Assembly (NCBI GenBank): GCA_022710585.1
Contig: JAKLGV010000007.1
Location: forward strand, 1 to 64,000
Length of the DNA stretch: 64,000 bases
Direction of reading: 5' to 3'
Source: Deltaproteobacteria bacterium
Lineage (GTDB): Bacteria > Desulfobacterota > Syntrophia > Syntrophales > Smithellaceae
Positions within the stretch are counted from its first letter, which is position 1. Every line of letters begins with the position of its first letter. Under the pieces are notes generated by a model. It was given only the letters and a program-made list of their open reading frames with translations. It had not been told where the DNA came from and searched no databases. The translations under genes were made by a program, and so were the position numbers. This document shows, one piece after another, positions 40,401 through 42,280 of the stretch.

Positions 40401-40480
40401 TTCCCCCTTTTTCTAAAGGGGGATTTAGGGGGATTTGAGAAATAAAATCCTCCCTAACCCTCCTTTAAAAAAGGAGGGAA
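40401..40480. repeat. 80-bp inverted-repeat element, gene-less form of the DUF559 element
   Basis: Left half 40401-40437 and right half 40444-40480 are imperfect reverse complements, and each half also folds on itself (CCCCCTTT...AAAGGGGG; CCTCCTTT...AAGGAGG). Their order and orientation match the two ends that flank the DUF559 gene at 41805-42225, with only six bases between them. It therefore looks like a MITE-style empty copy. It lies between the LhgO-like gene and the binding-protein gene. Confidence 0.75.
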
Positions 40481-41725: not shown

Positions 41726-41739
41726 CGTAACGGCTTGTT

Positions 41740-41776
41740 AAAATCCTCCCTAACCCTCCTTTAGAAAAGGAGGGAA
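41740..41776. repeat. Solo half-copy of the hairpin repeat
   Basis: A 37-base unit (AAAATCCTCCCTAACC... to AAGGAGGGAA) nearly identical to the right half of the 80-bp element at 40444-40480, differing by about one base. It folds as CCTCCTTT...AAGGAGG and begins 14 bases after the livK stop. Confidence 0.75.
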
Positions 41777-41804: not shown

Positions 41805-42225
41805 TTCCCCCTTTTCTAAAGGGGGAATGAGGGGGATTTGAATGCTACCTTTTGAAAGGAAGCTTAAACCTCTTGCACGAAATCTCAGAAGTAACATGAC
41901 TGATGCCGAGCATTTTATCTGGTCGAAGATCAGGCGAAAACAGATAAACAATGCGCAATTCTATCGGCAGAAAAATATAGGTCATTACATAGTTGATTTT
42001 TACTGTCCGAGAGGAAAACTGGTTATAGAGATAGATGGCGGACAGCATTATGATAAAGAAGGGTTTGAGAAAGATCAGATTAGAGATAGAAATTTACAGG
42101 AACTTGGATTAACCGTTCTGCGTTTTTCTGATACGGAGGTTCTTAAAAACATAAATGGTGTTCTTGAAAAAGTACATGAACATTTGAAAAATCTCCCCTA
42201 ACCCCCTCTTTATGAAAGAGGGGGA
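41805..42225 (+). mobile_element. Candidate mobile element: DUF559 nuclease gene between hairpin inverted repeats
   Basis: Left end 41805-41840 and right end 42188-42225 are imperfect inverted repeats of 36-38 bases, each folding into its own hairpin (CCCCCTTT/AAAGGGGG and CCCCCTCTT/AAGAGGGGG). The DUF559 start codon is two bases past the left end. The stop TAA is inside the right end, in the CCCCTAACCCC core of the repeat. Insertion lies within the liv operon. No transposase is present. No obvious target duplication could be picked out. Confidence 0.55.
41842..42201 (+). CDS. DUF559 (Vsr-like) endonuclease-domain protein
   Basis: 119 residues. The PD-(D/E)XK-type core is clear: ARNLRSNMTDAEHFIWSKIR, then FYRQKNIGHYIVDFYCP and KLVIEIDGGQHY, with the acidic D...ExD residues of Vsr-like nucleases. 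Full length for this family. It is read from an ATG that follows the left repeat without a clear ribosome binding site. Its last residues (NLP) and stop are coded by the right repeat. The protein might nick or cut DNA to move the element, or be a harmless passenger. Confidence 0.85.
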   Translation: MLPFERKLKPLARNLRSNMTDAEHFIWSKIRRKQINNAQFYRQKNIGHYIVDFYCPRGKLVIEIDGGQHYDKEGFEKDQIRDRNLQELGLTVLRFSDTEVLKNINGVLEKVHEHLKNLP

Positions 42226-42231
42226 CTAGAG

Positions 42232-42251
42232 CCTCCTTTAAAAAAGGAGGG
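42232..42251. repeat. Extra hairpin fragment of the same repeat family
   Basis: CCTCCTTTAAAAAAGGAGGG sits seven bases beyond the right end of the DUF559 element and equals the hairpin core of the 40444-40480 half-unit. Together with the half-copy at 41740 it shows repeated insertion or rearrangement here. It lies 30 bases ahead of the livH start. Confidence 0.65.
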
Positions 42252-42280
42252 GATAACAGGAATTTTTTCACCAATAATCT

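Follow-up and report, generated by a model that had tools for sequence, protein, structure and literature searches.

Organization of the locus

The window, i.e., the whole analysed stretch of 64,000 nucleotides, is located on contig C40 of the source genome (G000; 2.95 Mb, 42 contigs). A gene encoding a stand-alone DUF559 nuclease is situated between two triplex-type half-elements in the window, and an 80-bp gene-less copy of the same element lies upstream. The features were assigned as follows.

40402-40435, + strand: left half of the gene-less copy; hairpin TCCCCCTTT-TTCT-AAAGGGGGA, loop TTT, third strand AGGGGGATT; 9/9 triplets
40446-40478, - strand: right half of the gene-less copy; CCCTCCTTT-TTT-AAAGGAGGG, loop TTA, third strand GGGAGGATT; 9/9 triplets
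41739-41776, - strand: additional half of the right type, located upstream of the DUF559 element; shares 97% identity with the right half of the gene-less copy; 9/9 triplets
41805-41841, + strand: left half directly before DUF559, ending at the start codon; 9/9 triplets
41842-42201, + strand: DUF559 (PF04480) stand-alone nuclease, 119 aa; sole copy in the genome
42187-42226, - strand: right half overlapping the DUF559 3' end; hairpin CCCCCTCTTT-CAT-AAAGAGGGGG; 9/10 triplets
42231-42252, no strand assigned: right-type hairpin CCTCCTTTAAAAAAGGAGG standing alone, with no third strand

The gene-less copy (40402-40478) consists of two mutually inverted half-elements, each composed of a 9-bp hairpin, a 3-nt loop, and a purine strand mirroring the stem. 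By repeat search, the left-type half was delimited at 40401-40438 and the right-type half at 40443-40480. The earlier note had described the two halves as standing in the same order and orientation as around DUF559, with six bases between them. Sequence and repeat search agree with this arrangement, and the gap is about six bases between the blocks (40439-40444), or ten if the triplex strands alone are counted. The left half showed 91% identity over 35 nt to the half directly before DUF559 (41807-41841 in this comparison). The right half, with its 97% match to the extra half at 41739-41776, showed only 68% identity to the own right half of DUF559 (42187-42224).

Folding of the gene-less copy as single-stranded DNA gave a hairpin, a central stem, and a second hairpin (z = -4.6 and -5.0), and none of 200 shuffled sequences was equally stable. 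The hairpin pattern CYCCTTT..AAAGGRG occurred seven times in the 2.95 Mb, whereas the reversed control did not occur. Five of the seven perfect hairpins of the genome were placed inside 2 kb around this stretch. Because of these counts, the clustering, and the folding scores, the copy is not a product of chance. The genome-wide count that the earlier note had called for yielded a single gene-bearing element and two gene-less pairs, the intact one at 40402-40478 and a diverged one on C23 (about 165.4 kb). Solitary halves or hairpins were located at 27.6 kb of C34 and 20.8 kb of C10, besides 41739-41776 and 42232-42250 in the window.

DUF559 gene product

The PF04480 profile matched the DUF559 protein with 118.8 bits, against a curated cut-off of 20.6. 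The structure model (pLDDT 91.9) has a nuclease fold, matching NGO0050 of N. gonorrhoeae (3hrl) and, in its catalytic domain, the homing endonuclease I-Bth0305I (3r3p; profile E 8e-5, Foldseek E 7e-4). Residues D52, E63, D65, H69, and D78 were invariant across an alignment of 39 sequences and are candidate residues of a Vsr/EDxHD-type active site. The pN/pS ratio among type-A DUF559 genes was 0.13-0.28, i.e., the genes are under purifying selection, and the protein is therefore retained by selection. To our knowledge, DUF559 proteins have been annotated only as unknown or Vsr-like.

I-Bth0305I is an EDxHD, Vsr-like homing endonuclease with a reported target of nearly 60 bp (PMC3943268). It shares the catalytic-domain fold and sequence kinship with DUF559. 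However, the window protein is a stand-alone protein of 119 aa without the extended DNA-binding region, is encoded outside introns and inteins, and has palindromic repeats on its flanks.

In six relatives (loci L012, L013, L014, L015, L016, and L019), a type-B DUF559 was found in one open frame with the downstream gene. The fusion passes through a translated repeat (SPSPSPSPQGRG), and the ORFs are about 490-510 aa. In L013, the downstream partner was judged by eye as a radical-SAM-like protein.

Triplex-compatible architecture of the repeat

The purine stretch 3' of the hairpin is the mirror of the purine arm of the stem, with T permitted opposite A. Intrastrand triplexes of the purine motif follow this rule. 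Of five window halves tested, four showed 9/9 triplets and the right half of DUF559 showed 9/10. By sequence, the window halves are thus compatible with a triplex, and the triplex itself is predicted. Over 160 hairpins examined at DUF559 flanks, the mirror score was 5.76, compared with 2.90 after shuffling of the third strands (p = 9e-22). The mirror reading of the third strand was favored over the direct-copy reading in 111 hairpins against 8, with 41 ties.

The BoxC/PIT/TM repeats, known since the 1990s, are present in hundreds of genomes. In E. coli, the BoxC/PIT/TM_ECO repeat has a 9/3-6/9/3/9 architecture in which two unlike halves are paired (PMC4666352). The window repeat resembles it in the 9-nt C-rich arm, the 3-6-nt loop, the 9-nt purine arm, the 3-nt loop (even TTA), and the 9-nt mirror purine strand. 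Both form inverted pairs from two unlike halves, are intergenic, and are polymorphic from strain to strain. All three tracts of the family, i.e., the C-rich arm, the purine arm, and the mirror-compatible second purine strand, are present in the window halves. The sequences are different, as the window repeat reads AAAGGGGG/AAAGGAGGG and not GGGAGAGGG. Assignment to TM_ECO by the sequence pattern CCCTCNCCC..GGGNGAGGG..GGGNGAGGG failed, the window reading CCCCCTTT/AAAGGGGG. Therefore, the repeats have a common architecture but are not one sequence family.

An ordinary intrinsic terminator or mRNA-stabilising hairpin of independent origin would also be intergenic and palindromic, as these elements are. 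However, no terminator-like site was found at the gene-less copy or matched at the elements, and PIT elements were reported to have neither promoter nor terminator activity (PMC4666352). The 9-9-9 architecture with its third strand and the asymmetry of the halves, i.e., left CCCCC and right CCTCC, are common to several genera. The gene-less copy thus belongs to the same family as the gene-bearing element with sequence continuity, and independent terminators, which the earlier note had named as the reading opposed to its own, are very improbable. An Rfam search of the window gave no match.

Gene-less pairs in related genomes

The core of the gene-less pair was matched in 24 of 60 relatives, and a few of these matches are chance ones in coding sequence without hairpins. 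G003 has one type-A DUF559 and 11 gene-less pairs, i.e., one on each side of DUF559, the ortholog of the window copy (L308, 75% over 613 bp), and eight elsewhere. The G003 gene is therefore placed between whole pairs, not halves. Ten of the pairs were read whole, and all showed the left CCCCC and right CCTCC type of asymmetry. No ortholog of the window copy was found in G016, G008, G007, or G001; of these, G016 has the LivBP closest to the LivBP of the window. For an ancestral empty form, the other option in the earlier note, this distribution gives mixed evidence, as the copy is shared with G003 and absent from G016.

Gain or loss of pairs was observed at several sites, and the gene-less copies occupy unrelated sites. 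Most congeners lack two further gene-less copies that one relative carries. At site L312, G003 has a pair, 13 relatives have a gap of 45-50 bp, and another insert is found in G013. At site L315, G003 and G011 carry the pair, interrupted in G011 by an insert between its halves, and G000, G001, G005, G010, and G015 are without it. The livBP-livH gap contains a type-A DUF559 in G000, G003, and G013, a type-A half in G010, and type-B gene-less pairs in G015 and G020, and it is only 9 bp in G016, G007, and G001. At L312, L315, and livBP, where sequence divergence limits the comparison, neither a clean target-site duplication nor an exact boundary of the insertion was detected.

The earlier note had regarded the gene-less copy as a non-autonomous mobile unit, possibly a MITE derived by internal deletion of the gene-bearing element. 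The gain or loss of copies supports the first part. For the second, the two forms are 1.3 kb apart and have similar ends in the same order and orientation. However, no DUF559 start or end sequence was detectable in the spacers of the gene-less copies, which disfavors internal deletion, and the pairs outnumber the gene 11:1 in G003. The 68% similarity between the right end of DUF559 and the right half of the copy is also against it. Derivation by deletion is thus quite unlikely, and REPIN-like dimers fit better with the missing remnant and the excess of pairs. One putative DUF559 remnant in a spacer, convincing by eye, did not exceed shuffled sequences.

Another explanation is that the repeats are target, not cargo, i.e., DUF559 is a free-standing homing-type nuclease which inserts into existing pairs that were spread otherwise. 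The closest solved fold after NGO0050 is that of the homing endonuclease, and the window gene lies between two halves. Against this, no spread into available pairs is seen; in G003, 11 gene-less pairs coexist with a single type-A gene. The repeat type also evolves with the DUF559 gene, though the target of a homing enzyme could do so too. Homing into the pairs is considered unlikely, while being the most probable of the alternatives.

Several other repeats were noticed in these genomes. The livBP-livH region (L117-L127) is a hot spot for differing repeat types. At L120, downstream of livBP, there is an inverted CGTC/RPE-like pair, TGTCATTCCCGCGCAGGCGGGAATCCA..TGGATGCCGGATTAAGTCCGGCATGACA, and the intergenic regions L120, L122, L123, and L128 have another dispersed repeat with CAACAAAGATAGCGCTTTGATTTA or close variants. 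In G052, the gene-less pairs of L088 and L111 have longer outer inverted repeats (AATGTCATTGACTTAAG), perhaps as a composite element. Similar spacers (about TTTTGAARATGTTCATAAAATCC) occur in L090, L100, L101, L112, L305, L306, and L316 from several genera, perhaps a sub-family copied whole.

Association of DUF559 with repeats across bacteria

Among relatives, most stand-alone DUF559 genes inspected have, on one side or on both, a repeat made of a hairpin and a third strand, and the type of repeat differs by DUF559 subfamily. The flanks were then compared over 80 loci from many phyla. Strong inverted repeats were found at 46 of 77 DUF559 loci compared with 1 of 139 neighbouring ORFs of these loci (p = 5e-25), a proportion which is not a survey of all DUF559 because the loci were picked by similarity to an alignment containing the window protein. 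The remaining 31 loci, Haemophilus, Lysobacter, and Pseudomonas loci among them, showed no strong flanking inverted repeat.

On the DUF559 tree, the repeat type changed 9 times, compared with a mean of 33 in shuffled assignments, and none of 200 shuffles was as low. These counts of change are rough, as the tree is a quick maximum-likelihood tree with few columns and the types were assigned from flank patterns with 43 of 129 rows untyped. In 45 named loci, 4 changes of repeat type were counted against 17 changes of phylum. The repeat type tracks the DUF559 tree, not the host phylum.

Hairpins are commoner in relatives with a type-A DUF559 (median 8 vs 2, p = 4e-4). G004, G010, and G052 have 78, 25, and 45 hairpins, respectively, without any type-A DUF559; therefore, the repeats can persist, and perhaps spread, without it. 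In G004 (contig C17; L036/L081), a type-C DUF559 gene is apparently disrupted by a type-A repeat.

DUF559 could instead serve the host in repair, or act as an antagonist, by resolving hairpins or triplexes, the repeats being expanded by replication slippage or gene conversion. The protein is kin to Vsr, a repair-like role was proposed in Caulobacter (PMC12907096, PMC1189080), and the BoxC/TM loci of E. coli are unstable (PMC4666352). However, the DUF559 genes lie inside their own repeats and coincide with more copies, not fewer, and the gene-less copies are at unrelated sites. This role is improbable, marginally more so than the internal deletion.

CGTC-tagged REPs (Di Nocera et al. 2013, PMC3733652) are alike in forming inverted pairs with no transposase known. 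However, their signature, i.e., the CGTC tag, AT-starting stem, and CCA tail, is essentially missing from DUF559 flanks, with 2 weak matches in 129 loci, and they were rejected as the DUF559 partner.

ycjD and BoxC in E. coli

In E. coli, DUF559 is encoded by ycjD (1,351,407-1,351,760 in MG1655). TM_ECO no. 9 (numbering of PMC4666352) is located at 1,351,204-1,351,239, between ycjD and fabI, and ycjD carries the motif only on its 3' side. The gene has been treated only as one found where the eef operon is absent (PMC12817139). According to Holder et al. (2015, PMC4666352), neither a transposase nor an integrase was found near BoxC/PIT/TM repeats and no gene for mobility had ever turned up with them, and the published account proposes no partner; the partner proposed here is DUF559, including ycjD beside TM_ECO no. 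9.

The TM pairs 10+11 and 12+13 correspond to the sites gcvP-ygfF and alx-sstT. Two strains retain only a solo hairpin at alx-sstT after a deletion of 73 bp between the stem arms. The trpS-yhfZ copy is missing in two strains and is replaced by another repeat in a third. At this same intergenic site, a BIME-like repeat (L299) and a BoxC copy (L276) were seen in different strains.

In 59 listed E. coli genomes, the median number of repeat places was 22 with ycjD and 5 without, some negatives having 13-22; the comparison rests on coverage and place counts and is not independent evidence, because the difference follows phylogroups. In the N. gonorrhoeae genome, the E. coli motif had 7 matches compared with 6 in the control, i.e., no excess.

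A proposed REPIN-like system with a nuclease partner

DUF559 and its repeat share many features with the RAYT/REPIN systems (TnpA_REP REPtrons). In both, short inverted hairpin pairs are dispersed in several to many intergenic copies, one conserved enzyme gene exists per repeat type, and the repeats cluster at the gene. Gene and repeat co-evolve, and single hairpins occur as decay products. The dispersed inverted pairs are likewise accompanied by a single-copy enzyme gene.

Unlike RAYT, DUF559 is a PD-(D/E)XK/EDxHD-type nuclease and not a HUH Y1 transposase. The window repeats have a triplex-compatible third strand, and no GTAG or variant tetranucleotide was found beside the hairpin in the window halves. 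Y1/RAYT was rejected as the partner of the type-A repeats, because 28 of 30 Y1 loci in 14 relatives had no type-A hairpin nearby. Of the remaining two, one has three type-A hairpins about 700 bp off, and the other a single hairpin. It is DUF559, instead, that is flanked by the type-A hairpin. As both enzyme and tag differ, the system is not a member of the RAYT/REPIN family, though it may work alike.

The reading preferred here, with a probability of roughly 0.58, is that DUF559 and its cognate repeat make up a system resembling RAYT/REPIN, with a Vsr/EDxHD-type nuclease in the place of RAYT, the gene-less 80-bp copy being a dispersed REPIN-like unit of this two-part selfish or domesticated system. 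DUF559 is associated with the repeat and would probably mobilise it. The first part would be DUF559, a stand-alone nuclease for which a genome normally has one gene for each repeat type. The second would be the cognate repeat, usually arranged in inverted pairs, whose hairpin and mirror purine strand could fold into an intrastrand triplex. DUF559 may recognize the folded hairpin or triplex in single-stranded DNA, probably at stalled forks, and may nick at or near the folded repeat via its putative Vsr/EDxHD-type active site. Host replication or repair would then copy the pair into new intergenic sites.

A broader proposal is that stand-alone DUF559 proteins are the enzymes behind intrastrand-triplex repeats in general (BoxC/PIT/TM_ECO and the CCCCCTTT..AAAGGGGG type), i.e., a second, RAYT-independent class of REPIN in which a nuclease recognizes and disperses the folded triplex. 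We put this at even odds. In the openly accessible papers searched on DUF559, YcjD, and REP/BoxC repeats, no DUF559-repeat link was found, and an earlier report may exist in subscription journals or preprints.

How scattered bacterial repeats like BoxC of E. coli spread has never been explained, and the link to DUF559 points to a possible partner for them. A direct test of the link is possible in E. coli K-12, which has a BoxC copy next to ycjD. If it is true, the spread of BoxC/PIT/TM repeats would be explained, the large DUF559 family would gain a substrate, and REPIN-type systems would gain a non-transposase class of enzyme.
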